From Sulfurimonas gotlandica GD1 (lineage in GTDB: Bacteria > Campylobacterota > Campylobacteria > Campylobacterales > Sulfurimonadaceae), in assembly GCF_000242915.1 (NCBI RefSeq), contig NZ_AFRZ01000001.1, positions 1,302,001 to 1,366,000 on the forward strand: a DNA stretch of 64,000 nucleotides. Reading direction: 5' to 3'. Shown one piece after another: positions 3,543 to 44,186 of the stretch. The notes beneath the pieces are model-generated. The model saw only the letters and a list, made by a program, of their open reading frames with translations. It ran no database searches and was not told the DNA's origin. Both the position numbers and the translations under genes were made by a program. Numbering within the stretch: the stretch's first letter is position 1; each line of letters begins with the position of its first letter.

Positions 3543-3772
3543 TCTTTAGAATTTTTGTAAAACTCTATCGCATCTGATATTTTCTGCTCTTTATAAATCT
3601 TTTTATCACATACTAACCTACATTTTATTTTTGGATTGTTCGCAGCTTTTTCATTCTCAATAGTTTTTTTTGTTTCATAAGCCGATAGCTCAAAACTATT
3701 TGATTCTGGAGATTCAAATGGACTAAATGCCAATAGCAGTGCTGGGAAAAAAGTAAAAAGCAGTTTATTCAT
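3521..3772 (-). CDS. Small secreted hypothetical protein
   Basis: About 83 residues from ATG 3772 (a GTG at 3778 is the alternative). The N-terminus MNKLLFTFFPALLLAFS looks like a signal peptide. The mature part is short and charged, with two cysteines in CRLVCDKK that could form a disulfide in the periplasm, and it ends in a lysine-rich tail. I do not recognise a family. It converges on the 3132 gene and overlaps its end. It lies just upstream of, and divergent from, the fliK promoter, so a role linked to motility is possible but unsupported. No strong ribosome site is visible. Confidence 0.45.
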   Translation of the reverse strand: MNKLLFTFFPALLLAFSPFESPESNSFELSAYETKKTIENEKAANNPKIKCRLVCDKKIYKEQKISDAIEFYKNSKDYFSKSK

Positions 3773-3825
3773 AGGCACAATATCGACGTAGTCCGAAATA
3801 TATTTAATCCATTATATGAAATATA

Positions 3826-3843
3826 TTGGAATAGTTAATGCTT
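3826..3843 (+). promoter_or_regulatory. Sigma54 (RpoN) promoter for fliK-flgD-flgE
   Basis: TTGGAATAGTTAATGCTT has the sigma54 layout GG (3828-3829), ten bases, GC (3840-3841), with the TTGG and TGCT context. The expected start is near 3852. Hook genes are RpoN-dependent in Campylobacter and Helicobacter, which agrees. It also shows that fliK must start downstream, at 3889. Confidence 0.75.
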
Positions 3844-3888
3844 TATTATATAAAAACTGCCTATTTTAGGCTATATAAGGAGCTCAAG

Positions 3889-5364: not shown

Positions 5365-5374
5365 AGGATACGAC

Positions 5375-6040
5375 ATGGCAATCACATCAACAGGCTTAAA
5401 TGCCGCAACAAACGTAGATACTGTAGCTTCAACAGCAGCAGTAGATAAAACAGTTTTAGGTAAAGATGACTTTATGACTCTTCTTTTGGTTGAGCTTCAG
5501 CATCAAGATCCGACTGAACCTATGGACAGTGAGAAAATTCTAACTCAGACCTCTCAACTAGCAGGTTTGGAGTCAGCAGAAAATACTAACAAAGCGTTAG
5601 AAAGCTTAGCAGCTTCTTTATCTGCTTCACAAAACTTTTCATCAATTTCAGCAATTGGTAAAACAGCTGATTTAGGTAGTAATGCTATCGCACATGATGA
5701 AGGTACGCCAAGTTCGTTTGAGGTTTATTTTCCACAAGAGATACAAGCAGGTACTTTAGAAATTCTAGATAGTGAAGGTACTATTGTTAGCACTATGAAT
5801 GTTGATCCAAATCCAGCAGGAACTTATCAGTTTGACTGGGACGGTACTCTTACAAATGGAAATGCCGCTGAAAGCGGAGTGTACTATGTAACTTCTAGTT
5901 ATACAAATCCAGCTGGAGAAGCACAAACAACAAGAATGGGAACTTATCCTATAGAAGCTGTAAGATTTGAGAATGGTAGTGCACTTGTAAAAGTTGGCTC
6001 AAACTATGTTCCATTAGAAAATATAGTAGAAGTTTACTAA
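5375..6040 (+). CDS. flgD: Flagellar hook assembly (capping) protein FlgD
   Basis: 221 residues. FlgD caps the growing hook and lets FlgE subunits polymerise beneath it. The N-terminal conserved region (about residues 25-80) has FMTLLLVELQHQDPTEPMDS and QLAGLESAENTNKAL, the family hallmark. The C-terminal half (about 110-221) fits the FlgD Ig-like/Tudor module with FDWDGTLTNGNAAESGVYYV. Length is normal for the family. AAAGGATACGAC precedes the ATG. It lies between fliK and flgE1 with about 10-base gaps, so one transcript from the upstream sigma54 promoter is expected. It is exported by the flagellar type III system, so no Sec signal peptide is expected. Confidence 0.93.
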   Translation: MAITSTGLNAATNVDTVASTAAVDKTVLGKDDFMTLLLVELQHQDPTEPMDSEKILTQTSQLAGLESAENTNKALESLAASLSASQNFSSISAIGKTADLGSNAIAHDEGTPSSFEVYFPQEIQAGTLEILDSEGTIVSTMNVDPNPAGTYQFDWDGTLTNGNAAESGVYYVTSSYTNPAGEAQTTRMGTYPIEAVRFENGSALVKVGSNYVPLENIVEVY

Positions 6041-17999: not shown

Positions 18000-18031
18000 A
18001 ATTTGGAAATTTTTTGATTAATGGTGTAAAT

Positions 18032-19651
18032 ATGAGAAGTGATGTTTTAATTATTGGAGCAGGTGGAGCAGGTTTAGTTGCTGCCATAAATGCTCACGAG
18101 AGTGGTGCTAAAGTTAGAGTGATAACAAAAGAGTACCCAACAAGAAGTCAAACTAGTATGGCTCAAGGCGGTATAAATGCTGCCTTAGGAAATGCTGGCG
18201 AAGACAGTGTTGAAGCACATGTTCAAAACACTCTCAAATCTGCACACGGAATCGCAAATGAAGAAGCTGTTAGACTTCTGTGTGAAAGTGCACCAGATGC
18301 AGTAGAATGGTTGGACAGCATCGGTGTATGTTTTTCTCGTACTAAAGATGCAAAGATAGCTCAAAGAACGCTAGGCGGTGCATCTGCTCCTCGTGCCTGT
18401 TATGCACAGGATTATACAGGTCTGAAAATTCTTCATACTCTATATGACAGATGTCTTAGTCTTGGCATCGAGATATTAAATGAGAGATATCTTTTAAACT
18501 TTATAACACAAGCACCTGAGAAAGCAGATACTTACATCGGCGGAGCTACAGTTTTAAATATCAGAACGGGAGAAGTTGAGACTTATGAGAGTGCATCAGT
18601 TATAGTTGCAACCGGTGGTTATGCCCGCATCTATGACAAGCACTCTACAAACTCAACCGGTTCAACTGGAGATGGCATTGCAGCAGCTATAAGAGCAGGA
18701 GCTAGACTCAGTGACATGGAGTTTGTACAGTTTCATCCAACTGCACTTAAAAACTCTTCTATCCTTATCTCTGAGAGTGCGAGAGGTGCAGGTGGTTTTC
18801 TTCTAAACTCAAAAGGTGAGAGATTCACAAATGAGTTAGCGCCTCGTGATGAGGTGGCTCGTGCTATTAATGATGAGATTCAAAAAGGTGAAGATGTCTT
18901 TTTAGATATTCGACATTTAGGTGAAGAGTTTATAGATGAAGAGCTTCCTCAAGAGAGAAAGCTTGCAAAGCTTTATGAAAATGTAGATCCTGTTTATGAC
19001 CTGATTCCTATTAAACCAGTTGCTCATTACACTATGGGTGGAATAGAGGTCGATAAAAACTCTCAAACTAAGATAAAAGGGCTATATGCTGTTGGAGAGT
19101 GTGCGAATCATAAAGTTCATGGAGCAAATCGTCTTGGTGGAAACTCTCTGCTTGAGCTTATTGTCTTTGGACGTGAAGCGGGTAAAAATGCGGCAGAGTA
19201 TGCAAAAACTTTTGACAAAAGCATAGACGCATCTAGCCAAACACAAAGTACTAACAACTTTGTTATGGGTGTAAAACATTTTACTAACGAGATAGACTTT
19301 TATGAAAAACGATCACTTATAGGAAATATTTTTTATAACAATGCAGGAATCTCAAGAGATGAGATGGGACTAAAAGAAGTTCTTGAAGCTATTCGTCAGA
19401 TTCAAAGAGAAGTTCCTTTTATGGGTCCAAAAGATAAGTCTAAAATATATAACACAAATCTTGTTGAATTTATAGAGTTTGGAAATATGGTTGAGCTTAG
19501 TGAGATTATCTTAGTCTGTGCAATCAGTAGAAATGAGAGCAGAGGCGCTCACTTTAGAAGTGACATACCAAAAGAGAATGATATGGCATACAAGGCTCAT
19601 ACAATAACTTGGAAAGAAGATAGTGTGCTTTGTGCAGACTTTATGGAGTAA
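18032..19651 (+). CDS. Succinate dehydrogenase/fumarate reductase flavoprotein subunit, atypical (lacks covalent-FAD His)
   Basis: 539 residues from ATG 18032; TTG 18014 would add six residues. The FAD-binding start is DVLIIGAGGAGLVAAINA. Substrate and FAD regions include RTLGGASAPRACYAQDYTG, SARGAGGFLLNSKGERF, HYTMGGIEVD and HGANRLGGNSLLELIVFG, all typical of SdhA/FrdA. The motif that normally reads RSHT, whose His carries covalent FAD, here reads RSQT (Gln40), so FAD is probably non-covalent. There is no Tat signal, so the site is cytoplasmic. It forms a two-gene unit with the iron-sulfur subunit three bases downstream; no membrane-anchor gene follows. The reaction is succinate/fumarate interconversion, direction unknown. 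It begins 32 bases after the hybrid kinase. Confidence 0.85.
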   Translation: MRSDVLIIGAGGAGLVAAINAHESGAKVRVITKEYPTRSQTSMAQGGINAALGNAGEDSVEAHVQNTLKSAHGIANEEAVRLLCESAPDAVEWLDSIGVCFSRTKDAKIAQRTLGGASAPRACYAQDYTGLKILHTLYDRCLSLGIEILNERYLLNFITQAPEKADTYIGGATVLNIRTGEVETYESASVIVATGGYARIYDKHSTNSTGSTGDGIAAAIRAGARLSDMEFVQFHPTALKNSSILISESARGAGGFLLNSKGERFTNELAPRDEVARAINDEIQKGEDVFLDIRHLGEEFIDEELPQERKLAKLYENVDPVYDLIPIKPVAHYTMGGIEVDKNSQTKIKGLYAVGECANHKVHGANRLGGNSLLELIVFGREAGKNAAEYAKTFDKSIDASSQTQSTNNFVMGVKHFTNEIDFYEKRSLIGNIFYNNAGISRDEMGLKEVLEAIRQIQREVPFMGPKDKSKIYNTNLVEFIEFGNMVELSEIILVCAISRNESRGAHFRSDIPKENDMAYKAHTITWKEDSVLCADFME

Positions 19652-19654
19652 ACT

Positions 19655-20392
19655 ATGAAAATCAGAGTAGCAAGATATACAACAGAACCACAAATTACAG
19701 AGGCTGTTTTAGAGTATGAAGTACAGATGCAAGATGCCACACTCCTAGAAGTTCTAAATGAGATTAAAACAAAACAGGACTCTTCACTAACATATGCAAG
19801 CGGATGTAGAAGTAGTGTTTGTGGAAGCTGTTCTATGAGAGTTAATGGCAGAGAAGTCTTAGCCTGTGCCTATAAAGTTCAAGACGGTGACTTAGTTGAA
19901 CCTATGAAGAACTCTCCGATTATTCGTGATTTAGTTGTAGATATGGACAAGGCTTACTCTTTTAACGCTAAAGCGAAAGCTTGGCAGAGCACACTGAGTC
20001 CATCGACTAATCTAACACAAGATAATGAGAAAATTAACGAGATACAGAGTGACTGTATTCTTTGTGGTTCATGTTACAGCGCTTGTCCTGTATATGCTGT
20101 AAATGAAGAGTTTATAGGACCGTTCTCTCTAACTCGTGTTTGGAGATATGTTAGTGACGTGAGAGAAGAAGATTCAAGCCAGAAGATAGAAACTATTCAA
20201 ACTAATGGCATCTGGGATTGTACTCTTTGTAATGAGTGTACTCTTGTTTGTCCGCAAGATATCTCAAGTAAAGCAGATATAGAAAAACTTCGTTCTAAAT
20301 CTGTGATGTCTGGATTTAGTGACCCTAATTTTGCTTCTTCTTTTGGTGGAGGATTCGGAGGTTCATCGTTTGATGGAAGTCCAAGCTTTTAA
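19655..20392 (+). CDS. Succinate dehydrogenase/fumarate reductase iron-sulfur subunit, extra-cysteine type
   Basis: 245 residues. The N-terminal ferredoxin domain binds a [2Fe-2S] cluster through CRSSVCGSC and a later Cys (EVLAC). The C-terminal domain has CILCGSCYSACP for a [4Fe-4S] cluster and CTLCNECTLVCP for the third. Classical SdhB lacks the second Cys in that last motif and holds [3Fe-4S]; here all four are present, so a second [4Fe-4S] cluster is expected, as in the non-classical (SdhE-type) enzymes. The C-terminus is an odd Gly/Ser/Phe-rich tail (FASSFGGGFGGSSF). No CCG-domain or cytochrome b subunit follows. The gene converges with a diguanylate cyclase, and the two stops overlap by four bases. 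Confidence 0.88.
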   Translation: MKIRVARYTTEPQITEAVLEYEVQMQDATLLEVLNEIKTKQDSSLTYASGCRSSVCGSCSMRVNGREVLACAYKVQDGDLVEPMKNSPIIRDLVVDMDKAYSFNAKAKAWQSTLSPSTNLTQDNEKINEIQSDCILCGSCYSACPVYAVNEEFIGPFSLTRVWRYVSDVREEDSSQKIETIQTNGIWDCTLCNECTLVCPQDISSKADIEKLRSKSVMSGFSDPNFASSFGGGFGGSSFDGSPSF

Positions 20393-21864: not shown

Positions 21865-21975
21865 GAGTGGATTATATCATATAAATAAATTTATGTGCAT
21901 TTTTGTTACATTGAAGTTCCTATAACAAGATTTTAATATGTTATAATCATTGTTATTATTTTAAAGGGCTTGGAA

Positions 21976-22473
21976 ATGGCAAAAGAATACTCATTTGATA
22001 TAAGTGCAAAGATAGATATGCAAAACTTTAAAAATGCTATAAATATGGTTGATAAAGAAGTAGCTAATCGTTATGACTTTAAAGGAACAACTTATGAAGT
22101 TAGTTATAAAGAGAAAGAAAAACTTTTAGTTTTAATCGCTTCTAGTGATAACAAACTAGATGCTTTAAAAGATATAGTCGTTGCTAAGTTTTTAAAGCAG
22201 GGACTCTCATCTAAAGTTCTAGAAGAGTTACGCGTAGAAGACTCATCTGGTAACAATAGAAAAATGACTTTTAAGATTGTTGATTATATAGAGTCAAAAG
22301 AAGCTAAGAAGATAACTGCAGAGATAAAAAAGATGAAGCTTAAGGTCAATGCTCAGATAGAAGGTGATTCAATCAGAGTTAAGGGTGCTAAACTTGATGA
22401 TCTGCAAAAAGTTATAAAAGAGATACGTGAACGTGAGTGGGAAGCTCCACTTGTTTTTGAAAATATGAGATAA
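21976..22473 (+). CDS. yajQ: YajQ-family nucleotide-binding protein
   Basis: 165 residues from ATG 21976, preferred over TTG 21970 because AAAGGG (21964-21969) is well spaced. The start MAKEYSFDISAKIDMQNF and the stretch NRYDFKGTTYEVSYKEKEK are hallmarks of YajQ/DUF520, and the end (EREWEAPLVFENMR) also fits. YajQ proteins have two ferredoxin-like domains and bind nucleotides; a homologue in Xanthomonas acts as a cyclic di-GMP receptor. That link is interesting among so many GGDEF genes, but function here is inferred only from family membership. A TATAAT at about 21942 is a likely -10. It is followed 11 bases later by the HTH gene and probably forms a two-gene unit. Confidence 0.9.
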   Translation: MAKEYSFDISAKIDMQNFKNAINMVDKEVANRYDFKGTTYEVSYKEKEKLLVLIASSDNKLDALKDIVVAKFLKQGLSSKVLEELRVEDSSGNNRKMTFKIVDYIESKEAKKITAEIKKMKLKVNAQIEGDSIRVKGAKLDDLQKVIKEIREREWEAPLVFENMR

Positions 22474-22484
22474 GGAGTTAGAAA

Positions 22485-23138
22485 ATGTCTAAGATGAGTA
22501 TAACAGATGTCGCGTTAAGACTTGGAGTTTCTAAAGAAGCGATTCACAATCGTATTAGAAGAGGTTCTTTGGAAAGTGTTGTAGAAGATGGTGTAAAGTA
22601 TGTTCTACTCGAAGAAGGCAGTGTTCCTGCTAACAAACAAGCTCCAAAAAGAACTAACACAAAGGTGGCATCTGAGCCAGACTCAAGATACTACAAACTC
22701 TTAGAAGAACAAAATGAGAAACTTCAACAAAAAGTTGATAAATTAGAGGGTGAGACAAAAACTCTAAGAGAGCAAAAAGAACAGATGCTTGTCTCCGAGA
22801 GAATCAGAATAGAAAAAATTTATAAAGATAAAGATGAGCAGTTAAAAAACATACTAAATGCCATATCTTCTAAGTTTTTACTAAATGCTCCAAGTGATGA
22901 GTTAATTGTTGAGAGTGAAGAGCTTGTTGAAGCAGAGATAGAAGTTGAAGAAAAGTCATCCGCTAATCTTATATCTTTAAAAAAATACCTAAAAGATGGT
23001 AATTATACAGATAAAAAGAGTCAAAAGATAAAAGATAGATTTAAAAAAGCAGCTAAAAAAGATAGTAGGATTGTAACTGTTGGGAATAAGTACTATATCA
23101 ATACAGCCAAGTTTGACTATAGTGATCTTATACATTAG
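22485..23138 (+). CDS. HTH plus coiled-coil protein (DUF3972-like), possible DNA-binding regulator
   Basis: 217 residues. The N-terminus, MSITDVALRLGVSKEAIHNR followed by IRRGSLESV, looks like a MerR/excisionase-type helix-turn-helix. Residues about 65-120 form a charged coiled coil (heptads around KLLEEQNEKLQQKVDKL). The C-terminal ~50 residues (KKYLKDGNYTDKKSQKIKDR, ending in KYYINTAKFDYSDLI) form a second small conserved-looking domain. The layout matches the Campylobacterota-restricted DUF3972 proteins as I remember them, of unknown role; DNA binding is inferred from the HTH. AAGGAG precedes the ATG. The gene converges with the CZB cyclase gene, 22 bases away. Confidence 0.65.
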   Translation: MSKMSITDVALRLGVSKEAIHNRIRRGSLESVVEDGVKYVLLEEGSVPANKQAPKRTNTKVASEPDSRYYKLLEEQNEKLQQKVDKLEGETKTLREQKEQMLVSERIRIEKIYKDKDEQLKNILNAISSKFLLNAPSDELIVESEELVEAEIEVEEKSSANLISLKKYLKDGNYTDKKSQKIKDRFKKAAKKDSRIVTVGNKYYINTAKFDYSDLIH

Positions 23139-23160: not shown

Positions 23161-24444
23161 TTAAGAGGACTCAACTCTATTTCTACCAGTGTGTTTAGCT
23201 GTGTAGAGTTTCTGATCGGCAATCATAATGTACTCATCTATAAAAGAGTTTTTAAACATTTTCTCCGGTCTTACTTCAATCATCCCAATACTTACTGTAG
23301 CATTCAAATCCTTGCCCTCAAACTCTAAGGTGTTATTCTCGAAATTTCTACAAATCTTTTCTAAAACTTCAAAACCTTTTTCTTTGCTTACAGTAGGAAG
23401 AATAATAACAAACTCTTCTCCTCCATAACGAATGATTACATCTGAATTACGAATATGTTTTTTTACTACATCCACAAAGCTTTTAAGAACTTTGTCTCCT
23501 GCAACATGACCTCGAGTATCATTTATCTTCTTGAAATGGTCAAGATCACAAATACCTAGAACAAAAGTGTTGTTAGTAGCCAGTGAGAGCTCGTACTGGC
23601 TTTCAAAAACATTTCTAAGACCATTTCTATTAAGTGCACCTGTTAGAGTGTCTTTAGTAACCCTTTTATTCATTATAACGTTATCTATTAGAGCTAACTC
23701 TGTGCCAATGCTAAGAGAGATAAGTTCACATTTTTCTAGATAAGTAATCTGTATATGATGCTCAGAATCACCTAGATGTGAATATATTTTTTTTGCAAAG
23801 AGATGCAGGTTGCTATGAAGAGCATCTATTGTTTTAAATTTTGAATTGTTTTGTATTACATTTTTAGCATCTGTATGTAACCACTTGCCAAAATCACACA
23901 ACTTGTCATCTAGCTGTGGAAAATCTTCTATTTTTTCATCTTTAATATGACGTGCAAGTGTTGTAAGCCATAACAGATGAGATTCATAGTGAGAGATGAT
24001 GTTTTTCTCTAACAAATCAGATAGAGATGTTATTCGTAGATTATTTAGTCTTAAAAGTTCATCTACGTATTCATGAAGATATATGTGTGCAACTTTGTCG
24101 TTAACATCTTTAAATAAAGAGAGAACATTAATGATATTAGAGCTTATCTCTTGTTCGCTCATTTTGCTTATTAAGATGGTTTTTAAAGCGTTAATCTCGT
24201 TTACCATTAAAATATAGGGAACGTCTAAAGATATTTTGTATTTTGCCAGTTTTTCAAACATTGTAAGAAGTTCATCTTTTTTGAAACCAGATTTCAATAT
24301 AGTCAGAATATCTTTGTAGTAATCACGAACAACAAATGCTTTTTCATCATTGTAAGTGTTTACACAAGAAGTATATTTATCTATAAACTCATCTAGGATC
24401 TCTTCACAGTCGCTGTGAAATATGTTTGAAAAACTGTATGTCAT
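23161..24444 (-). CDS. Zinc-sensing diguanylate cyclase: N-terminal helical domain, CZB domain, GGDEF
   Basis: 427 residues, soluble. Residues 1-130 are helical and unassigned. Residues about 150-220 carry all zinc ligands of a CZB domain: His156 in SHLLW, Cys183 in CDFGKW, and His210/His214 in HSNLH. E. coli DgcZ (YdeH) joins CZB to GGDEF and is inhibited by zinc, so the same logic is expected. The GGDEF domain is intact (GGEEF 341-345; I-site RNSD 332-335; [18 protein letters not shown]). The start overlaps the stop of the DUF1538-PII transporter gene (ATGA, 24441-24444), so the cyclase is translationally coupled to it. Zinc regulation is inferred from the conserved ligands. Confidence 0.88.
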
Positions 24445-26366
24445 AAATCGCTACTTTTTAAGGTTAACCCTTTAAGGTGTGAGATAGGATATGAATAAGA
24501 TATTCCATCTCCTCGACCGACAATATCAAGCTTATGCATAATGCTAAATATGATATTATCAACTTTTTTCGTTGGAACTATGAACATTAGGTTTACATCA
24601 GTAGGATCACTATGAAGACGGTTATAAAAGTTATCCATCTCTGTTAGCCCCATTCCGTGCGCATCCATGATAGTTACGCCACCGGCACCTGCATCACGAG
24701 CGGCAATAAGAGCTTTATCCTGATTTTTTCTAGGTACTATGATGTGAACAGCAGAGAAAGGCATTTTGTATGAGTGTCTCTGCCCTGTTCCGTGAATCTG
24801 TACAGTTGAGAGCCCCATATCGTTAGCATGCTCAATAGCCTGACGAAGCTCATCCATGTGTAACTCTTCAAGCTCATGCTCACCTTTAACACCCATTCTA
24901 TCTGTAATAATCCCATAGAGCATTACTGTTAGCATCGGGAAAAGTGAAGCAAAGGCAATAAGACCAAATCCATCAATAAGCGGATCACGACCAGGTATGT
25001 TTGTCGCCAGACCAAGACCAAGTGCAGCAACTAAAGGAACTGTTACAGTTGAAGTTGTAACTCCGCCACTATCATAAGCAATAGGTACGATATATTTTGG
25101 TGCCATAAAAGTAAGGACTATAACAAACAGATAACCAGACATGATGTAGTAAACAATCTCTCCACCAACAACGATTCTGTATGCACCCAAAGAGATACCG
25201 ATAGCAACACCTAGTGCAACAAATAGACGAAGTACGAAATCATTTATCTTGCCATCACTAATCTCTTTGGCTTTTTTTGCAATAGCAGTCAGAGAAGGTT
25301 CAGCCATAGTAGTTGAGAAGCCTATTAGAAAACCAAACGAGTATATGATGATGTTGTTATCATACTGAGTCAGCTCAAAAGCCATAGTCTCACCGACTGA
25401 GAATAGACCCATCTCTAAACCGACGATAAATGCATCCAGTCCAATAATAACAAGCCCAAAACCAATGACTACTTCTTTTAGATTATCTATTGGTTTCTTT
25501 AAAATAGCGTACTGAAAAAATAAAATTACTGCCAAAATAGGAACAACATCTATTACTACGCCAACAAAACCTTTTAAAATATCAAGAATCTTAAAGTCAA
25601 AAACAGCAGGAGTCTTGGCTGCTTCCACAACAGGAGCAACAATAGAGGTACTTACATCAATAAATTCATATACAAAAATTCCATAAAACTGAACAAATAT
25701 CATAGGAGTCAGAGATGCAAAAGCGATAAGTCCAAAACCATCTAAAACAGGGTTTCTGCCTTTAATAGTAGACGCCAGACCAATACCAAGAGCAGCGACC
25801 AGAGGAACCGTCACCGTTGAAGTAGTAACACCACCTAAGTCATAAGCAAGTCCTACAATTTCTTTAGGTGAAAAAGCTGTTGCTGCAACAACCATAACGT
25901 AACCGGCAATGATATAATAGTGTATAGGATGACCTTTGATAATCCTCCAAACACCTAAAACAATGGCAAAACCGACAGAAAATGCGACAACTATTCTAAG
26001 TGTGTTAGCATCGATTCTACCATTACTGATACTAGCCGCTTTTTGTGCGATAACTATTAGTGCAGGTTCAGCTACAGTTGTACCAAAACCTATCATAAAG
26101 GCGAAAATGATTATCCATTTTGTTGAGCCTTTTCTAGCAAACTCACTTGCAAGACCCTCTCCAACAGGAAAGATACCGATCTCTAGACCTAGAAGAAATA
26201 CAGCAAGACCAACACCGACTATTCCAAGTCCGATAGCTGTACTTAACCAGTTTTCCGGCACACTTTGAATGATTGCTAACTGAAAAAACATAATAACAAG
26301 AATGATAGGTAATAAGTCTCTAAAAGACTCTCTTAACAGTTTTAAAAACGAAGCAATGCTTAACAC
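24441..26366 (-). CDS. DUF1538 membrane transporter-like protein with C-terminal PII-like domain
   Basis: 641 residues starting at GTG 26366 (AAAGGG ribosome site five bases upstream). It contains two homologous membrane halves, about 1-245 and 260-490. Both contain a STTMAEP/GTTVAEP-type loop ([19 protein letters not shown], then [19 protein letters not shown]) and [20 protein letters not shown] / [20 protein letters not shown]. This is a DUF1538 inverted-topology-like permease. The last ~130 residues (from about 510) have the ferredoxin-like pattern of a PII signal protein, with [35 protein letters not shown] and [16 protein letters not shown] domains bind nucleotides and gate transporters. 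Substrate is unknown. It is the first gene of a two-gene unit with the CZB cyclase. Confidence 0.8.
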
Positions 26367-26743: not shown

Positions 26744-27193
26744 ATGGAGATAACGTTACTTCTTAAATCTATTATGGGATTAGTTATAATTTTAGCCCTT
26801 TTAATATTTTTATTATTTTTACCGTCTAATCAAAAAAAAGAAAAAGAAAAGAATGCACCTAAAAATATTACTCCCACACAGCAAAGACCTCCAAACACAG
26901 ATTTAGAATATCTTAGATCAATTATAAAAAAGAAAAAATCAACAACACAAGAACTTAAAGAAGCTTTGGAAATGGTTATAAGATATCATGGCATTGTTCA
27001 CGAAAAACTTGGTCTTAGAACACATCCTGATTTTGATATATATATGGATATACTTTTTACAATATGCAGACACCCAAATACAAATAAAGATATAGTTGTT
27101 AAGTTTGACAGAGAGTTAGCTAGACTAAATCCAGATTATAAGCAAGAGATAAATGAGGCTATTACAAAAGGACTAAACTCAAGAAGAGTTTAG
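26744..27193 (+). CDS. Membrane-anchored hypothetical protein
   Basis: 149 residues. One N-terminal transmembrane helix ([16 protein letters not shown], about 12-27) is followed by a basic, proline-rich linker (about 28-52) and a soluble helical domain (about 53-145, with [19 protein letters not shown] and [13 protein letters not shown]). The soluble part faces the cytoplasm if the positive linker follows the positive-inside rule. I do not recognise a named family; proteins of this shape are common in Campylobacterota. AAGG lies about nine bases before the ATG and a TATAAT at 26705-26710 could be the -10. It follows tRNA-Ser by 66 bases and converges with the chemoreceptor gene, overlapping by four bases. 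Confidence 0.6.
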
Positions 27194-28314
27194 TTTTTAC
27201 CCTTGTGTCGAGTAGCTTTTTCTTCTTGAAGCATATTAGATAGTAGTTCTACGACCTGTTGGCTGGCTTTTTCTGCATTGTTAAAGTAAGTCATTACATT
27301 TTGAGACTCTTGTGTACATGTGTTAGCTTTAACACATTCAACTGCTTTTTTGATGTTGTCATGAACTGCTTTATGAGGCTCAGCCATTTTAGAGTAGCTT
27401 GAGCAGTTGCCGAACTTTTCTTTACCGGCTCCCTCAAAGTACCATTTACCAAGTCTACATTCTGTATCTGCAGCAAAGTGACCTTGAGCCTCACCGCTAA
27501 AGACTGTTTTGTAGCCATTTGCTTTAAAGAGCAGGTGATCAAGTTTACTAAGAACCATAAAGATAGCGTAAGTTACATCTTTATTTTCTATCGAGATCAT
27601 TTGTGAATTTTGTGAAAGCTCTCGCATTCTATCTTGAAAAATATCCATTTGTTCATTTGAGCTTGTAGACAACTCTTCCATAGCTTTAGAGTGTTCATGA
27701 ACTTCTTGAGTATTTTGTTTTAGACTCTGTACTGTAATCTCTACTTCACTTGTAGCTTTTTGAGTGCGTTCTGCAAGTTTTCTTACTTCATCGGCAACAA
27801 CAGCAAAACCACGACCATGTTCACCAGCTCTTGCAGCTTCAATAGCAGCATTAAGTGCAAGAAGATTTGTCTGGTCTGAGATATCTTTAATAAGATTAAT
27901 AACATCAGAGATGCTTCCAACATTTTCATTCAGAGTGTTAACCTGATCAAATGTACTTGTGATATGTTCAAGCAGGGAAGTCATAGTATTTGAGAGTATA
28001 TCTACATCAGTAGAACAATTGTCAGTATGATTGTTGTTAGTGGAGTTTCTGGCATCAACATCTTCAAGTGCATTAAGATTGTCACTTAAGTCCTGTTGTA
28101 AGATTTTAAGATCTCTGTTACAAGCATCAGTCAGGCTATGTGTTAGTGATTTAATCAGTTCATTCATCTGATTACTATTATCTATGTGGCTGACTTCTTT
28201 CTCTAGCTGAGATATTTTGTCCTTAGCAGTCGTGAGTTCATTTTGAAGAGAGTTTATCTCTTCTTCTTTTGCTTTTAGCTCAGCCTCAAGCTTCTTGTTG
28301 TTTCCAAATAACAT
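27190..28314 (-). CDS. Soluble chemoreceptor (TlpD-like) with C-terminal CZB zinc domain
   Basis: 374 residues with no transmembrane segment. A long N-terminal coiled coil (about 5-110) leads to the methyl-accepting signalling hairpin, with the conserved tip region [20 protein letters not shown]. The C-terminus (about 265-360) is a CZB domain: [17 protein letters not shown] and PHKAVHDNI supply the His, Cys and His/His zinc ligands. Helicobacter TlpD has the same plan and is linked to energy, oxidant and zinc-related responses. It signals to CheA/CheW in the cytoplasm. A 294-bp part of the signalling domain is repeated with one mismatch in inverted orientation in the 31111 gene. The two proteins differ in their N-termini and part of the CZB. 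Confidence 0.92.
27667..27960 (-). repeat. Left copy of a 294-bp inverted repeat (chemoreceptor signalling domain)
   Basis: The reverse complement of this stretch matches 31465-31758 at 293 of 294 bases by direct reading; the one difference is a synonymous ATT/ATA Ile codon. Matching stops at both ends (flanks differ in GAACATATC versus GAGCATATT and in CTAC versus CTCA). The copies are 3.5 kb apart and bracket lapD-lapG. Confidence 0.9.
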
Positions 28315-28441: not shown

Positions 28442-30367
28442 CTACACTAGCTCTATCATCTCTGTAGCTCTACCTTGGATTATATGAATGTCTTTTTCAT
28501 GAAGTTTATTTAGAGTCTCCATATCCATAACGCCTGCAGCTATAAGTGAGATGCCAACTGTATCTGTTATAAGTCTAAGAGCAGATAGTGCCTGATCACT
28601 TTGACTTAGGAAATAATCGGTTTCACCTTTTATATATACCGGTCGTAAATCTTGTAAGTACTGATAATCAACACTCTCGCCAATAAACTCAAATACACCC
28701 ATATCTATATTGTATTTTTCAAATAGGGCTTTATACTTTTTAATAAGAACAGAGTTTTGACGAACAAGTTTATCTGGCATCTCTATGATAAGCTTAAATG
28801 GAAGATCTGAAGCGTAGATGCTAAAAATATTACTCATGTTTTCATAAGTGCCTTCAAGAGTTAAGTAGTCATAAGGAAGTCTAAGTGAACAAGCAGAACC
28901 TTTTAGCCTCATATCCGGAGTTTTGAACATCATGTTTAGAACATTCTCATAGATTTTAAAGCTTAGCCCGGCTTGATTAGCAGGAGCCATGAATTGACCG
29001 TAGTAGTATGTAGTATCCTTATCAACTTTAAGTGTAAGGCTAAGGACATTGTGTGCAATTTTTCTCATTTTTGCATCTACTGCTGTCCATGAAACAAAGT
29101 TGAAACTATTTTTTTCAATAGCGTCATTGATTATTTTTCTCCACGCTTCTTTCCCCATAACTTCTACAGTGTCTTCAGCTTTTGCCAAATAAATATTATC
29201 TTCACTGAATTTTGCTTGTGCAAGAGCATTGTCTGAATGAGAAAGAAGTTGACCAATATTTTCTTTGTAGTTATATGAATATAAGCCAAGAGATATAAAT
29301 GTCTCAGACGAATCAAGATTAAAACCTTTCGCAATCTTCTTACAAGAAGAGTAGATGCCTTTTGCCAAGTTTATTCCTTCTTTATCTGAACAATCTGGAA
29401 GTAAAATAGAAAACTCTGTGCCATTCATTCTAGCGACTATAGAGTTATCATAGTTACTAGCATGCGCATCAAAAATATTTGCAATAGCTAAAAAGAATTT
29501 ATCAACTTGCTGGTGACCAATCTTCTCATTAGCTTCAATGATACCGCTAAGTGCAATCATCATATTGATACCACCTTTTGAAGTAGCATCAATTTTTAAA
29601 TATTCAGGTAGTTTATCAATAAGGTATTTACGGTTTCTTAGTTTTGTAGCTTTATCTATATACTCAAGCTCTTTTTGGCGTTTAAGCTCTTCATTACCCT
29701 TGTCAAACATGGCTTTTACTTTTGAGACCATATTATTCATACCAAGAACAACATCTTTGAACTCTTTTGTATAAGGGATATTATCTTGAATAATAAACTC
29801 ATTTCTAGTAACAGCTTCAGCTTGTTTTTGAACTTCTTTTAGTGGTTTTAAGATAATTACTAGAAGTAGATTTAGTATTGCTAAACCTATTACTGCGATG
29901 ATGCCAAAAGATATTAGAAGATTTATCAAGATTGTATATAACTGCTTATAAGCATAGCCGGCATCACTTTGAACATTTAACACCCCCACTTGAGACCATC
30001 CTGCAGAAACATTTGCAGATGCTACAGGTGCTGTAATACTAAGAGCATCTATAAACCATTGCGGTACATCAATGATTTTTTGTTCTACTTCTCTGTTGTA
30101 TATAAGGTTGTTCTCAATATCCACAAGAGTGATATAGCGATAATAACCACTATCAAAGCTTGCATTGATCATTGTAGTCATTATGCTGATGTCACCTTGT
30201 GAAGTTCCAAGAGATAGACTAAGTGAAGAAGCAGTGTTTTTAGCATCTGTGTATAATCTGTCTCGTACAGACTCATTGGCACTTTTAAAGTTTAAAACAA
30301 GAACAGTTGTTAAGATGATGATTAAAAACGTGGACAGCATTAATGCTATTTGCTTAAAGAGTGTCAT
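28442..30367 (-). CDS. lapD: LapD-like cyclic di-GMP receptor (degenerate GGDEF-EAL, inner membrane)
   Basis: 641 residues from ATG 30367, which overlaps the lapG stop (ATGA) and has AAAGGA upstream; an in-frame ATG at 30406 lies inside lapG. Order: transmembrane helix (about 5-25), periplasmic LapD/MoxY-type domain (about 28-138, with YYRYITLVDIENNLIYNREV), second helix (about 145-175), HAMP, then degenerate GGDEF (signature reads MNGTEF) and degenerate EAL (EAL replaced in WTAVDAKMRKIAHNVL). It is therefore a receptor rather than an enzyme. In Pseudomonas, LapD bound to cyclic di-GMP sequesters the protease LapG and keeps a surface adhesin attached. Co-expression with lapG supports the same role; the adhesin is not in this window. 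Confidence 0.87.
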   Translation of the reverse strand: MTLFKQIALMLSTFLIIILTTVLVLNFKSANESVRDRLYTDAKNTASSLSLSLGTSQGDISIMTTMINASFDSGYYRYITLVDIENNLIYNREVEQKIIDVPQWFIDALSITAPVASANVSAGWSQVGVLNVQSDAGYAYKQLYTILINLLISFGIIAVIGLAILNLLLVIILKPLKEVQKQAEAVTRNEFIIQDNIPYTKEFKDVVLGMNNMVSKVKAMFDKGNEELKRQKELEYIDKATKLRNRKYLIDKLPEYLKIDATSKGGINMMIALSGIIEANEKIGHQQVDKFFLAIANIFDAHASNYDNSIVARMNGTEFSILLPDCSDKEGINLAKGIYSSCKKIAKGFNLDSSETFISLGLYSYNYKENIGQLLSHSDNALAQAKFSEDNIYLAKAEDTVEVMGKEAWRKIINDAIEKNSFNFVSWTAVDAKMRKIAHNVLSLTLKVDKDTTYYYGQFMAPANQAGLSFKIYENVLNMMFKTPDMRLKGSACSLRLPYDYLTLEGTYENMSNIFSIYASDLPFKLIIEMPDKLVRQNSVLIKKYKALFEKYNIDMGVFEFIGESVDYQYLQDLRPVYIKGETDYFLSQSDQALSALRLITDTVGISLIAAGVMDMETLNKLHEKDIHIIQGRATEMIELV

Positions 30368-31002
30368 ATTTTTTTCCTTTCGATGTTTTTTATAAGTTGA
30401 TCCCATTGGCGACCAACTTTTTCACTTTTCACCTTTTTACCAGTTGATATTTTCTCAACTTGTCCAGCTTGAAGCCTGTAAATAGGTTGTAAATCTTTTC
30501 TTTTGTCAGCTGCTAGAACTTTAAAATTGTTATTATCCAATATAAGTGGCATTGCTGATGGTTTCTCATAGTATGCTAAAACCATGTGAGCTTCTTTGAA
30601 TTTTGTAGATTTAACATAGAAGAAAAATAGTTTTTTCATATCCATTCCCAGATATTGTAATGCAAAATATTTCGCAATTACATAATCTTCACAGTCACCT
30701 CTATCTCTGCCTAAAAATTCATACGGAGTAGCCCAATAGTCACTCATGCCGTATGTATTTTGATCGCTTGAGTACCTGACATCATTGTAAAATTTATTTA
30801 CAGCATCCAACTTTTCAAAGTCACTACTATCTTTTAGTGAATCAAAAGTTTTTTGTTGAAAAAAAAATCTTTTTTTAGCAAATACTTTATACTCTTCCCC
30901 AATCCTCTCTAGTAACTCCTTATCTACATAAGGCTCAGCCAAAGCGTATGAGATATTGACAAATAGTAGTGATATAAAAAAAAGCAGCTTAAATTTACTC
31001 AT
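30364..31002 (-). CDS. lapG: LapG-like periplasmic cysteine protease (transglutaminase-like)
   Basis: 212 residues from ATG 31002; a GTG at 31032 is possible. The N-terminus (FKLLFFISLLFVNISYALA) is a signal peptide. The bacterial transglutaminase-like cysteine protease core shows Cys in GRDRGDCEDYVIAKYFAL, His in AHMVLAYY and Asp in LILDNNN, the expected triad. LapG cleaves the N-terminal retention region of a giant adhesin when cyclic di-GMP is low. It is directly upstream of and overlaps lapD. No ribosome site is visible; TATAAT (complement of 31009-31014) lies six bases before the ATG, hinting at a leaderless message. A lapA-like adhesin with its type I export system is expected elsewhere in the genome. 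Confidence 0.87.
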   Translation of the reverse strand: MSKFKLLFFISLLFVNISYALAEPYVDKELLERIGEEYKVFAKKRFFFQQKTFDSLKDSSDFEKLDAVNKFYNDVRYSSDQNTYGMSDYWATPYEFLGRDRGDCEDYVIAKYFALQYLGMDMKKLFFFYVKSTKFKEAHMVLAYYEKPSAMPLILDNNNFKVLAADKRKDLQPIYRLQAGQVEKISTGKKVKSEKVGRQWDQLIKNIERKKI

Positions 31003-31110
31003 GGAATGATTATAACTAAAATTATCTGACACAAATCTAACATTTATCTTTAGATAATTTAAGCTTATGTTTAATATAATTCATTATGTGATTATTATAT
31101 AGGTTGAAAA

Positions 31111-32223
31111 ATGTTATTTAACAAAAATAAAGAGATATTATTAAAGCTAAAAGAGAGAGACGAACGCATTGCTTCTTTGGAATCAGAAGTGCAGATGTTA
31201 GGCTCACAAATAGAAGAGTTAAGAAGAGAAAACTCTTCACATCGTGATGACACGGTGATGGCTGATCTGACAAAAGCACTTACAAATGGGCTTATAACTG
31301 GCTGTGACAGTGATCTTGTAGAGATAAGAGGTGATTTGGAAAATAATCTAAGAACTTTAGAGCTATTGGATTCAAATGAAGATAAAAATAAAGAGTTTAC
31401 TCTGAAAGTAAATGATGAGTTAGACAAGTTACATAATACTTCAGATGCACTTCTTGAGCATATTACAAGTACATTTGATCAGGTTAACACTCTGAATGAA
31501 AATGTTGGAAGCATCTCTGATGTTATAAATCTTATTAAAGATATCTCAGACCAGACAAATCTTCTTGCACTTAATGCTGCTATTGAAGCTGCAAGAGCTG
31601 GTGAACATGGTCGTGGTTTTGCTGTTGTTGCCGATGAAGTAAGAAAACTTGCAGAACGCACTCAAAAAGCTACAAGTGAAGTAGAGATTACAGTACAGAG
31701 TCTAAAACAAAATACTCAAGAAGTTCATGAACACTCTAAAGCTATGGAAGAGTTGTCTCAAAGCTCGATAGGTTCAATGGATCTATTTAGTACAGAGATG
31801 CACGCATTGGCGGACAATGCTACAGCAATAGAGCAAGAGAGTAAAGATATTGGGAACTCTATATTTATTATTCTTAGTAAGTTAGATCATCTTATCTTTA
31901 AAGCAAACGGTTACAAAACTGTTTTTAGAGGTGAGGTAACTAGTGACTTTAAAAGTGATACAGAGTGTCGTTTAGGTAAGTGGTACCATACAGGAAAAGG
32001 TAAAGAGAACTTTAGCGGATGTTCTAGTTATAGTAGACTAGCAACGCCTCACAAAGAAGTTCATGATAATATCCAAAAAGCTGTAGATTGTGTGAAAAAA
32101 GGCAGTTGTTCTAAAGAGAGTGATAATGTAATGACTTACTTTAATAGAGCCGAAGAAGCTTCTAGAAAAGTTGTAGCACTTCTTAGTTCAATGCTGGTAG
32201 AGGAAAAAGCACAAAGACACTAG
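31111..32223 (+). CDS. Soluble chemoreceptor (TlpD-like) with C-terminal CZB zinc domain, paralogue
   Basis: 370 residues, no transmembrane segment. N-terminal coiled coil (about 1-110), signalling hairpin (about 120-255) and C-terminal CZB domain with [18 protein letters not shown] and PHKEVHDNI ligands. It has the same plan as the 27190 receptor on the other strand, and 98 codons of the signalling region are almost identical in DNA, while the N-terminal coiled coil differs strongly and CZB moderately. Such near identity at synonymous sites implies recent gene conversion or recombination. AGGTTG precedes the ATG. It is divergent from lapG and converges with the radical SAM gene, overlapping by four bases. 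Confidence 0.92.
31465..31758 (+). repeat. Right copy of the 294-bp inverted repeat (chemoreceptor signalling domain)
   Basis: Partner of 27667-27960, opposite orientation, one mismatch in 294 bases. Recombination between the copies would invert lapD-lapG and exchange the 5' parts of the two receptor genes. Confidence 0.9.
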
Positions 32224-33895: not shown

Positions 33896-35338
33896 TTAGC
33901 TCTTGGCATTAAACTCTTCTATCATATTATCTAGTTTTATATATAGCTCTTTAGAAGCATTTTCCATCACTGTAAAGTTTTTAACAATAGTTTTTGGATT
34001 TTCAAATTTCAGAGTTGAATTATTTTTAACAAACTCTAGATTTTGGAATACTGAGTCGTGAACAAGAGCATGAGGTGCGTCCATCTCTTGAAAGGCTTTA
34101 GTATGTCCAAATCTTTCTTTCCCTATACCTAAGTACCATTTACCCATACGACAATTCTTATGATCTGCAAATACTTTAGTCTTATCTGATTCTAAAACGC
34201 TTGAGTAAGCATTTGATTTAAAGATAATATGGTCAACTTTTACAAGTGTTGTGAATAGACGGTTTTGAATCTGTATCGCTGAATGTGACGAGTGTTCAGC
34301 TAAAGAATTAAGTTCTGAGAAAGTGCTTTCAAACTCATGTATAACATTAGTTGAGCTTTGTGCGATTTCGGAGATGTTGTCTGAGTTAGTTCTCATATCA
34401 TTTGCATCTTGTTGAAGTGTGGAGATATTTATCTCTATCTCGTTTGTTGCTTTTTGTGTACGTTCTGCAAGTTTACGAACTTCATCGGCAACAACAGCAA
34501 AGCCGCGTCCATGTTCACCCGCACGAGCAGCTTCAATGGCAGCATTAAGAGCAAGCAGGTTTGTCTGGTCTGCAATGTCTTTAATGAGATTAACAACTTC
34601 TGAAATTTCTTTTGAACGATGCTCCAGACTAACGATTCCTTCATGACTTGATGAGATAAGCTCAACCAAGTTGCTTAATCTTTCTCCAATCTCTACAACA
34701 CTGTCTAAGCTTTTTGATGATTCTTGGGCTGTTTTTTTAGCAACTTCAACAATCTCTGTAGCATTACTTTGAGAAGCATTAATATCTTCTTGAATTACAA
34801 CTAGTCCGGAGCTTACCCCACCACCTAAAGTGCTTAAGTTATGAGCAAGTTCACCTCTGATTTTAGTCTCATAACCACTGGCAATAGATGAGATAGCATT
34901 ATTTAGACTCTCAGAAGTTTTACGGAATATTCCGTGAAGACCTGCAGGATAAGTTCTTCTATAAGTTTTCCCAACAGCAGCATACTCTATAGTTGTCTCA
35001 GTATCTCTCATAAAGGCTTCGAGTTGATCTAGGAGATCATTTAGAGCCCATGCACGAGTTGAAAGAGGTGAGTTGTCATTAGGTATATGTGTAACACGGT
35101 CTTCTAAATTACCGGATGCTGCATTCATAATAACCCTAAACATTGATTTTGATAATTCTGATTCAGATTTTCCTGCTGAAGCTGAAGCAGAGGGAACAAA
35201 AAGTGAAATTATTAAAACAACAACTATAGCACCACTAAAAATATAGTTTGCACTAACTACACCAAATATTGCCACGCCAACAAGTGCAGCAAAAAGTAAA
35301 ACAGCCTGATTATTCTTGAATAGCGATAATAAGTTCAT
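33896..35338 (-). CDS. Membrane chemoreceptor with CZB domain (CetA-like partner of PAS protein)
   Basis: 480 residues. Two adjacent transmembrane helices (about 12-50) with almost no periplasmic loop, then a HAMP-like linker, the signalling hairpin ([20 protein letters not shown]) and a C-terminal CZB domain ([27 protein letters not shown]). A receptor without a periplasmic sensor needs a cytoplasmic input. The gene just upstream encodes an Aer-type PAS protein and overlaps this start by 29 bases. The pair matches the split Aer receptor CetA/CetB of Campylobacter jejuni used in energy taxis. The added CZB domain suggests zinc or oxidant input too; that is inference. Start ATG 35338 has GGGTAGG upstream. 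Confidence 0.88.
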
Positions 35339-42570: not shown

Positions 42571-43314
42571 CTATCCTACTTTTTTTGAAGTAAACAATAC
42601 TATTATCGAACTAAGAAGCGCACCTAAAAATACTATGGTGTAGCCAGTTGGAAGATCAAAATAGTAAGATATTATAATGGCACTTATACTAAAAAACCAT
42701 CCAAAAACAAAACTACTTAGAAGTGATTTGTTTAGTTTAAGTGAAGTAGATACAAGTGCCGGAGCGATAAGAAGTACAAAAACTACAAGTACACCTGCTA
42801 AGGCTACAGATGAAGTAACTGTCAGTGCTAACAAAGAGAAGAACATCAGCTCTTTTAAAAAACCTGTTAGTTTTGGATAGACTTTCCAAAGAATCAAAGC
42901 TATAAAAGCGTAGATAACAGCACTCTTTATTACATCATCGGCAGGGGTGAAAAGTATATCACTTGCTAGTAGTGATTTGAAGTGCTCCATACCTTCAGCT
43001 GAGTGAGATAAGACCATCATGATTCCACTTGCACCCAGAACATATAAAAGCCCTATAAAGGCTTCTAGTTTTATATTCCTCTGAGATGCTATTGCGATGA
43101 TAAAAGCACTAAAAAGAGCAAAGACAAGAGTTATAGCGTAAAAGTACTCGGAATGAAAATAACCAAGACTAATAGCAGAACCAAGAGCTGCAAACTGCGC
43201 AATTGCTAGATCTGTAAAGATGATTCCTTTTTGAAGAATTCTTATCCCAAACCACGCGTGCATCATAACAAGTATGATAACTAGAGCGATTGGTACTAAA
43301 AGAATATCCATCAT
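42571..43314 (-). CDS. znuB: Metal ABC transporter permease (ZnuB family)
   Basis: 247 residues with about seven or eight membrane helices. It has the family motifs AIAQFAALGSAISLGY and SSVALAGVLVVFVLLIAPAL of ABC-3 permeases for zinc, manganese or iron. It forms the inner-membrane channel that takes metal from the ZnuA-type binding protein. It overlaps the znuA stop by four bases. No ZnuC ATPase gene lies in the locus, although the usual arrangement places it beside these two, so the ATPase must be supplied from elsewhere. Confidence 0.88.
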   Translation of the reverse strand: MMDILLVPIALVIILVMMHAWFGIRILQKGIIFTDLAIAQFAALGSAISLGYFHSEYFYAITLVFALFSAFIIAIASQRNIKLEAFIGLLYVLGASGIMMVLSHSAEGMEHFKSLLASDILFTPADDVIKSAVIYAFIALILWKVYPKLTGFLKELMFFSLLALTVTSSVALAGVLVVFVLLIAPALVSTSLKLNKSLLSSFVFGWFFSISAIIISYYFDLPTGYTIVFLGALLSSIIVLFTSKKVG

Positions 43315-44186
43315 TTTATAGCTCCAGTCAGATAGTCAAACAGAGAAGTAAGGTCTTCTATATTATCTAAAGCTCCGATGTCATGAGGCATTAGAACGAT
43401 TTTTATACCTGTCTTTTCACGAATAAACTCAGCTGTTTTTGTAGAGTGATAAACATCATGTAAGACACAGCAAGGCTTCTCATCATTTATGAGTTTGATA
43501 GTATCAATGATGTGTCTTGATGATGGCGGAATACCAGGTAATGGCTCAATTGTCCCGATGTTATTAAGAGAGTAAGCCTTGTTAAAGTAGGCTAGGTTAT
43601 TATGAAACTGTATAACTTTCATACCTTTTTTATTAGCCATCTTCTCTTGCCAGACTTTCATATTCTCTTTCCAAGATGCAGAAAATTGCTCATAATTTTT
43701 GTTATAAACATCGGCATGCTCACTATCGAGTGAGATAAGAAATTTTTGTATTGTTTTTGCCAAAACTATAATATTTTGCGGATCAAGATGAAAGTGAGGA
43801 TTCCCATCTGGGTGGATATCTCCATTTGCGCGATCAACGCTTGATGGTTTGTTTATGAGTTCAACATGATGAGAGAGATTTAAAAAACTATTAGACCCAA
43901 CATTTGTTTTTGGATTTCCTGCTCTGCGAAGCAAGGCGGGCAACCAACCGATCTCTAGCTGACCACCATTCATAATAAGAGCATCTGCATTTCTCATCTT
44001 AGAGATTAGCGAAGGACGGGGAACCACAAAGTGTGGATCCCAGTTTCCTTTTGCCAAAACTACAGTGTTGATATGCTCACCACCGATGCTCTTTGTAATA
44101 GCACCGATGTAAGGATAACTAACAGCTATGTTCATGTGAGCAAAGAGTGTTAGCGGTAAAAGTAATAATATTAAAAATTTATTCAT
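43311..44186 (-). CDS. znuA: Metal ABC transporter substrate-binding protein (ZnuA family)
   Basis: 291 residues. Signal peptide (MNKFLILLLLPLTLFAHMNI). Candidate ligands of the cluster A-I metal site are visible: HFVVPRPSL, GNPHFHLDPQN, QFHNNLAYF and the C-terminal HDVYHSTKT region. The long His-rich loop common in zinc-specific ZnuA is missing, so manganese or another divalent metal is possible. It works in the periplasm with the permease encoded next, whose start overlaps its stop. It follows the outer-membrane protein gene by 25 bases and so probably belongs to one unit with it. Confidence 0.88.
   Translation of the reverse strand: MNKFLILLLLPLTLFAHMNIAVSYPYIGAITKSIGGEHINTVVLAKGNWDPHFVVPRPSLISKMRNADALIMNGGQLEIGWLPALLRRAGNPKTNVGSNSFLNLSHHVELINKPSSVDRANGDIHPDGNPHFHLDPQNIIVLAKTIQKFLISLDSEHADVYNKNYEQFSASWKENMKVWQEKMANKKGMKVIQFHNNLAYFNKAYSLNNIGTIEPLPGIPPSSRHIIDTIKLINDEKPCCVLHDVYHSTKTAEFIREKTGIKIVLMPHDIGALDNIEDLTSLFDYLTGAIK

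Follow-up and report, generated by a model that had tools for sequence, protein, structure and literature searches.

A DUF1538 antiporter-family protein fused to a PII-like domain in Sulfurimonas gotlandica, and the predicted diguanylate cyclase gene that overlaps it

Results

A transporter–PII fusion gene and its overlapping neighbour

A stretch of 64,000 nucleotides of the Sulfurimonas gotlandica GD1 genome (assembly GCF_000242915.1, contig NZ_AFRZ01000001.1, positions 1,302,001 to 1,366,000; hereafter the window) was analysed. On its reverse strand it carries a gene that joins two DUF1538 membrane halves to a PII-like domain, followed by a gene for a CZB-GGDEF protein, a predicted diguanylate cyclase. 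Both open reading frames lie where a first-pass annotation, made from the sequence alone, had placed them, and the stop codon of the first does overlap the start codon of the second. The parts of the pair, with the evidence for each, are as follows.

24441..26366, reverse strand: DUF1538-DUF1538-PII fusion gene, putative UmpAB-type antiporter (641 residues, GTG start)
25674..26354, reverse strand: first DUF1538 half, UmpA-like, residues 5–231 (Pfam, NCBIfam, half-to-half alignment)
24897..25580, reverse strand: second DUF1538 half, UmpB-like, residues 263–490 (Pfam, NCBIfam, half-to-half alignment)
24477..24767, reverse strand: PII-like domain, residues 534–630 (Pfam P-II, profile against PDB, structure match)
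24441..24444, reverse strand: ATGA stop/start overlap of the fusion and cyclase genes (sequence)
23161..24444, reverse strand: CZB-GGDEF diguanylate cyclase, predicted (427 residues, ATG start; Pfam, alignment, model)
24010..24444, reverse strand: N-terminal all-helical domain of the cyclase, residues 1–145 (predicted model)
23785..23979, reverse strand: CZB zinc-binding domain, residues 156–220, with H156, C183, H210 and H214 (Pfam, alignment)
23176..23655, reverse strand: GGDEF domain with GGEEF and I-site RxxD (Pfam, alignment, structure match)

The membrane part belongs to the family of the UmpAB antiporter

The fusion protein matched Pfam DUF1538 (PF07556) in two stretches at 455.5 bits against a cut-off of 22.6 (E 2.4e-137), and an ungapped alignment of its halves shows 54% identity over 214 residues, which bears out the first-pass description of two homologous membrane halves in one chain. 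Its only two NCBIfam matches were the UmpA and UmpB antiporter subunits, UmpA with its best stretch on the first half and UmpB on the second. The UmpAB antiporter belongs to DUF1538, a connection absent from the first-pass annotation. In Halomonas zhaodongensis, UmpAB is reported to work as a hetero-dimer that exchanges Na+(Li+,K+) for H+, each subunit having seven predicted transmembrane segments (PMC5484666). The Sulfurimonas protein resembles it in having paired homologous halves in the order A then B, but differs in joining both halves and a PII-like domain in a single chain and in scoring below the UmpB cut-off. DUF1538 also appears among the families that a published table gives as important for the prediction of optimal growth pH (PMC13255231). 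A phmmer search of PDB with the whole chain returned no match up to E 10.

A hydropathy scan of the protein gave no clean count of transmembrane segments. Among 76 fused proteins, a bias toward lysine or arginine switches from half to half across eight places in corresponding loops, favouring the first half at 12/16, 78–79, 144 and 202, and the second at 290/291/297, 364/367, 424 and 490. The bias at 424 is only partial (its counterpart, 168, is basic in a fraction of 0.53), and position 9/265 is about equal in the two halves. This alternation is what one would expect of halves of opposite topology with seven transmembrane segments each, and such an arrangement would leave the C-terminal PII domain on the cytosolic side, its most likely location.

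The C-terminal domain is PII-like

PII proteins are homotrimers with nucleotides bound at the subunit clefts. Residues 510–641 of the fusion protein had been assigned to a PII-like domain in the first pass, with a profile or structure match to PII named beforehand as the test. The match was found by each approach, so that the identity stands; the boundary does not, since the domain begins at about residue 534 and residues 495–533 form a linker that opens with a helix. Pfam P-II (PF00543) matched residues 539–618 at 33.3 bits (cut-off 25). A profile of 13 fused and separate PII sequences retrieved P-II proteins first from PDB (best E 1.3e-7), while the PII region searched as a single sequence reached only E 0.37, again to PII proteins. 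In the predicted structure of the fusion protein, the mean predicted local distance difference test score (pLDDT) was 79.9, with values of 61–67 in the T-loop region of the PII domain. All 50 VIA-align matches listed for residues 534–641 of this model were PII or PII-like, the best being SbtB (6n4a; Z 12.0, root-mean-square deviation 1.9 Å over 84 residues). The 50 matches listed by Foldseek were likewise all PII proteins with a probability of 1.00, the best having an E value of 1.4e-3 and none falling below 0.001. In the 76 fused proteins ten PII residues (G560, G563, T565, G571, G573, G619, G621, P627, K632 and G633) are 96–100% conserved, and R583 in the T-loop region is 95% conserved. A stronger P-II match lies elsewhere in the genome, at 2171818; it is probably a canonical PII protein.

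PII is a near-constant partner of DUF1538

Linkage was assessed by a six-frame profile search for PII at 59 DUF1538 loci of the Campylobacterota, taken from a search of relatives and a sample of the phylum, in which 29 of 200 genomes had DUF1538 (loci are denoted L, genomes G). Left out of this set were five of those 29 genomes (G062, G088, G175, G189 and G232) and locus L085, which holds only a 30-residue scrap of DUF1538. The search placed PII in the DUF1538 chain itself at 28 loci and in a separate gene no more than 1 kb away, on the same strand, at another 28, and gave no match at three; PII was therefore linked in 56 of 59. Because 13 of the 56 positive loci supplied the profile, they match by construction, and the independent figure is 43 of 46. 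The separate gene lies directly downstream of DUF1538 or nearly so, except in L184 and L185, where it lies upstream, one gene away. Several of these loci continue with a CBS-domain gene (identified by Pfam in L078 and L081, by eye in the others). At two of the three loci lacking a match, L073 and L080, the contig ends on the PII side.

The association extends to other phyla. Nine of 72,556 plasmid records matched the fusion protein at E 1e-10, all within the DUF1538 part, and in all nine a PII-profile match lies directly downstream, annotated as P-II in seven (H5 and H8 are unannotated). Six of these loci are from Bacillota and have a tandem pair of PII domains, and three are from Alphaproteobacteria; two same-species pairs are counted among the nine. 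PII is thus a near-constant partner of DUF1538 across phyla, and the first-pass remark that DUF1538 genes occur near PII genes proved true far more widely than stated. No description of the link was found in the open-licence PubMed Central (PMC) literature searched, and the term 'PII' has no occurrence in the UmpAB paper PMC5484666.

Fused proteins were encountered in Sulfurimonas, Sulfuricurvum, Arcobacteraceae and other groups. Of the best 80 named loci (567 were confirmed), 76 align to at least residue 637 and the other four stop at contig ends; this list is biased toward the fused form because its query was led by the fused protein. A fused antiporter is also present in five gammaproteobacterial metagenome-assembled genomes (L135, L139, L141, L144 and L163), whose copies form one long branch among campylobacterial rows, suggesting gene transfer or mis-binning.

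In six clostridial loci (L191, L192, L195, L196, L197 and L198) the DUF1538 gene is followed by a protein with two tandem PII domains. The S. gotlandica genome itself holds two further, more distant DUF1538 genes, L086 (950000–961000) and L087 (1598000–1609000); behind each lie two PII-like genes, one clear and one weak.

The overlapping gene encodes a predicted zinc-binding diguanylate cyclase

The second protein of the pair matched Pfam CZB (PF13682) over residues 156–220 at 43.6 bits against a cut-off of 29.4, and GGDEF above the cut-off at E 4.2e-37. We take H156, C183, H210 and H214 to be zinc ligands by their spacing, which is that of DgcZ. These residues, GGEEF (341–345) and the I-site residues R332 and D335 do not vary among the 17 sequences aligned, the window included, in agreement with the complete CZB site and intact GGEEF noted in the first pass, and the protein is predicted to be an active diguanylate cyclase. 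A CZB site of the 3His/1Cys type (PMC8262984) joined to GGDEF is what it shares with DgcZ (YdeH). The cyclase model (mean pLDDT 91.3) aligned with DgcZ (4h54) over residues 147–427 with a Z score of 23.1 and a root-mean-square deviation of 15.5 Å, a value which indicates that CZB and GGDEF fit singly and that their mutual placement differs, with no single-body superposition. The VIA-align list for this protein tested essentially the GGDEF part. Unlike DgcZ, the cyclase has an extra N-terminal helical domain of about 145 residues, and its score of 199.2 against NF007380 (PRK09894), presumably the DgcZ model, lies below the curated cut-off of 256.

The helices of the N-terminal domain span residues 33–51, 56–72, 77–97 and 101–142 in the model. 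A profile search of PDB gave three matches with unrelated names at E 0.016 or worse, none convincing. When 16 members were compared with Pfam, almost all of the families listed were hit by a single member only, including ACT_phage (one match, E 1.8e-4) and Rsbr_N (one match, E 0.032); again none was convincing. The domain is possibly an undescribed sensor domain. It also aligns with paralogues L046–L048 at 16–19% identity.

The cyclase accompanies the fusion gene in a minority of loci

Among the 80 named loci, 73 had enough downstream sequence for the cyclase to be sought, the other seven being untestable near contig ends. It lies directly behind the fusion gene on the same strand in nine, and is missing there in 64. 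In the relatives set the pair was present in four of 60 genomes, that of S. gotlandica included (G000, G016, G019 and G029); the two sets overlap, three of the four genomes corresponding to L095, L100 and L150. The first-pass annotation had made its proposed module depend on the pair being conserved in relatives. This largely failed, and a conserved transporter–cyclase module is rejected as a general rule.

Where the pair exists, seven of ten junctions (the window included) overlap, six as ATGA (window, L089, L093, L095, L098 and L120) and one as TAATG (L091); those of L094, L100 and L150 are spaced by 11–15 bases, and the L094 cyclase copy is frameshifted. Aside from L089 (89%) and the broken L094 copy, the cyclases are 55–63% identical to that of the window. 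The distribution of the pair was followed on an antiporter tree of 76 rows, built by a quick method with five named loci left out as incomplete. A minimum of seven changes is needed, five of them forced by supported branches; shuffling the trait gave a mean of 9.6 changes, and four of 500 shuffles were as low as seven. The cyclase tree is mostly unresolved, but it supports a pairing of the window with L089 and a trio of L120, L095 and L098; the antiporter tree recovers that trio with support 94, together with a supported group of the window, L088 and L089. These matching subclades suggest that the pair is old, largely inherited together and repeatedly lost, although re-acquisition may have played a part.

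Full-length cyclase orthologues also occur away from the antiporter gene, in G011 and, on other contigs, in G007 and G034, and one is present in G022, which has no antiporter gene. The G034 copy adjoins helix-turn-helix and yajQ genes, which in the window come as a block after the pair. In Arcobacter L161 a CZB-GGDEF gene (46% identical) lies upstream of the fusion. Within the genus, a full-length orthologue (E 1e-140 or better) was found in seven of 27 genomes with a strong antiporter match and in one of ten without, a weak co-occurrence; the copy of G032, which has the antiporter gene, is split into two open reading frames and was not counted. The coupling of the cyclase gene to the fusion gene is real in the sequence, and it is lineage-limited.

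The pair lies in a neighbourhood rich in c-di-GMP and CZB genes

Genes for putative cyclic di-GMP (c-di-GMP) proteins flank the pair on both sides.

21970..22473, forward strand: YajQ-family protein (DUF520), possible c-di-GMP effector, a frequent neighbour (neighbourhood, family role)
22485..23138, forward strand: helix-turn-helix-like protein, a frequent neighbour beside yajQ (weak Pfam matches only)
28442..30406, reverse strand: LapD (LapD_MoxY_N, GGDEF, EAL), candidate c-di-GMP receptor nearby (domain scan)
30364..31032, reverse strand: LapG-type protease, Peptidase_C93 (domain scan)

The lapG and lapD genes lie upstream of the antiporter gene on the same strand; LapG and LapD are a system for adhesion control by c-di-GMP. 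Homologues of both are also found near the antiporter gene in L090, L092 and L095, and of LapD in L097. On the other side of the pair are the YajQ-family gene and a dCache-GGDEF gene, and YajQ proteins of Xanthomonas, Pseudomonas aeruginosa and Stenotrophomonas are reported to bind c-di-GMP (PMC4199771). The genome as a whole has 113 GGDEF matches in 2.95 Mb and 15 CZB matches, and thus a predicted c-di-GMP network that is very large. Three CZB chemoreceptor genes are present in the window (27190–28314, 31111–32223 and 33896–35338), the first two much alike by eye; together with the CZB-GGDEF gene they place four of the 15 CZB matches within about 10.5 kb. Zinc-uptake-like genes (ABC-3 permease and ZnuA; 42571–44186) lie about 18 kb from the CZB-GGDEF gene.

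Ion-transport genes recur at other loci. In seven named loci a ClC gene follows the fusion on the opposite strand, accompanied in four by TrkH and TrkA genes (identities from Pfam on L066). Independent hints come from TrkH-like genes behind the fusion in L163 and from a ClC gene near DUF1538 in Peptoclostridium. Such neighbours fit a role in ion homeostasis. frdAB-like genes occur near the antiporter gene in the window (18014–20392) and, directly upstream of the fusion on the same strand in an operon-like arrangement, in L136 (2756–4917), L145 (1011–3229) and L148 (2743–4892).

Discussion

PII-type proteins act on ammonium and bicarbonate transporters. With moderate confidence, we read the fusion protein as a PII-gated cation/proton antiporter which, in some Sulfurimonas, is co-translated with a cyclase that senses zinc or redox state independently, in a neighbourhood of c-di-GMP genes. 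An UmpA-like half, an UmpB-like half and a PII-like regulator would together form a monovalent-cation/proton antiporter in one chain. The PII domain would bind adenyl nucleotides in the cytosol, and its T-loop, moving with the bound nucleotide, would gate the antiporter. The gating step is drawn by analogy with the proposed action of SbtB on SbtA, and with GlnK, AmtB–GlnK being mentioned as a PII-gated transporter (PMC10117731). The sodium/bicarbonate system SbtA–SbtB likewise pairs a membrane transporter with a PII-like protein, the one that is our best structural match; here, in contrast, the transporter is DUF1538 by profile and the regulator is fused to it. GlnK also gates a membrane transporter, but it is canonical and unfused, and AmtB is of another transporter family.

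In the minority of Sulfurimonas with the pair, the cyclase would share the message of the antiporter, with its translation coupled to that of the fusion gene, and would feed local c-di-GMP receptors, namely LapD and perhaps YajQ. Its control most likely lies with its own CZB domain, by analogy with DgcZ, which zinc inhibits and whose zinc occupancy changes when the zinc cysteine is oxidised (PMC8262984), or with available zinc serving as a proxy for redox state, as proposed for a CZB chemoreceptor (PMC13370339). The two genes would then be co-expressed for a shared condition, such as a redox, ion or pH change, with no direct signal from PII to the cyclase. The results lend no support to the idea of PII or transport state driving the cyclase, which nonetheless keeps a small probability.

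Several observations weigh against parts of this reading. In the NF041627/NF041628 pair of equivalog models, the fusion protein exceeded the UmpA cut-off by 0.1 bit (490.1 against 490, with both halves summed) and fell below that of UmpB (440 against 500), and it is for this reason that the substrate of the fused antiporter is something we infer. At L082 (DUF1538 at 3668–5393, its start cut off by the contig end) no PII lies downstream; the upstream flank falls outside the sequence, and the locus may be, or is, a departure from the partnership. The next gene there looks like a radical-SAM protein by eye. The Trk and ClC genes are convergent with the fusion and, in the named loci, belong mostly to one clade. 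The closest relative, L088 (96% identical), has no cyclase, its next gene ending at most 15 bases from the stop codon, so that the antiporter does without one. Predicted Shine–Dalgarno strength was -0.3 to -6.3 kcal/mol at the seven overlapping cyclase starts, -3.8 to -7.1 at the three spaced ones and +0.8 to -7.4 at ten other genes of the window, a comparison that gives no clear support for translational coupling. Given the 113 GGDEF matches of the genome, moreover, a cyclase neighbour is by itself weak evidence.

This abundance, together with the number of gains and losses forced on the antiporter tree and the clean absence in L088, would suit a cyclase that, as one of many, landed behind the antiporter gene and has the message alone in common with it. 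We regard such neutrality as somewhat unlikely: position and a mostly overlapping junction have been kept at 55–63% identity, longer than expected of an accidental layout, and few shuffles of the trait matched its clustering on the tree. The same retained overlap in divergent copies, and the signs of joint inheritance in two subclades, could instead reflect an integrated module in which the PII domain or the transport state controls the cyclase directly, so that nucleotide, ion and zinc status set c-di-GMP. To our knowledge, Azospirillum GlnZ is the sole precedent for a direct link from PII to a cyclase. GlnZ is reported to bind both TrkA and a diguanylate cyclase, and c-di-GMP to be altered in a glnZ mutant (PMC7646526); PII, cation transport and c-di-GMP are thereby linked in one system, as may be the case here, although GlnZ is a soluble PII acting by protein interaction, and in Sulfurimonas the link would be by fusion and an operon. 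Three PDB entries named as ammonium transporters (8qj3, 8qj4 and 8qpf), known to us from entry name and match alone, have a chain matching GGDEF and so tie transporter and cyclase domain together in one chain, where Sulfurimonas uses two genes. Direct control is nonetheless improbable in our judgement, with the cyclase behind the antiporter in only nine of the 73 testable loci and orthologues standing apart from the antiporter gene or occurring where there is none. More doubtful still is the combined proposal that DUF1538 proteins are PII-gated antiporters throughout bacteria and that in Sulfurimonas the PII domain docks on the cyclase, forming one complex that would convert nucleotide or ion status and zinc or redox state to c-di-GMP.

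Two other roles for the PII domain were weighed against nucleotide gating. It might serve as a structural assembly domain that has lost ligand sensing, and the PII region is indeed less conserved (mean 0.68) than the membrane halves (0.86–0.88). We find this very doubtful in view of the near-invariance of the ten PII residues and the occurrence of linked PII as separate genes and, in other phyla, as tandem pairs. Cyclic di-AMP (c-di-AMP) controls potassium homeostasis in other bacteria, and a c-di-AMP receptor serving that end would agree with the report that SbtB binds this nucleotide (PMC10117731; structure 7obj). A search of the S. gotlandica genome (one contig) found no diadenylate cyclase domain (PF02457), while the same search was positive in 11 of 14 control genomes. 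Endogenous c-di-AMP is therefore an unlikely ligand; its production in this cell as the PII ligand is rejected for this genome, and the receptor role as a whole seems extremely improbable.

The fusion is a variant of the known arrangement of PII plus transporter, and the partnership of DUF1538 with PII across phyla is the more useful result. Near-constant linkage, with outright fusion at loci of the set studied, suggests that a widespread and little-studied antiporter family is also under PII control. If so, such control would possibly tie ion and pH homeostasis to energy charge, and the fused protein lets it be tested in a single construct, by comparing versions that have and lack the PII domain. 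On the cyclase side the question is smaller and limited in lineage: could c-di-GMP be steered by PII or ion state, as the Azospirillum case hints?

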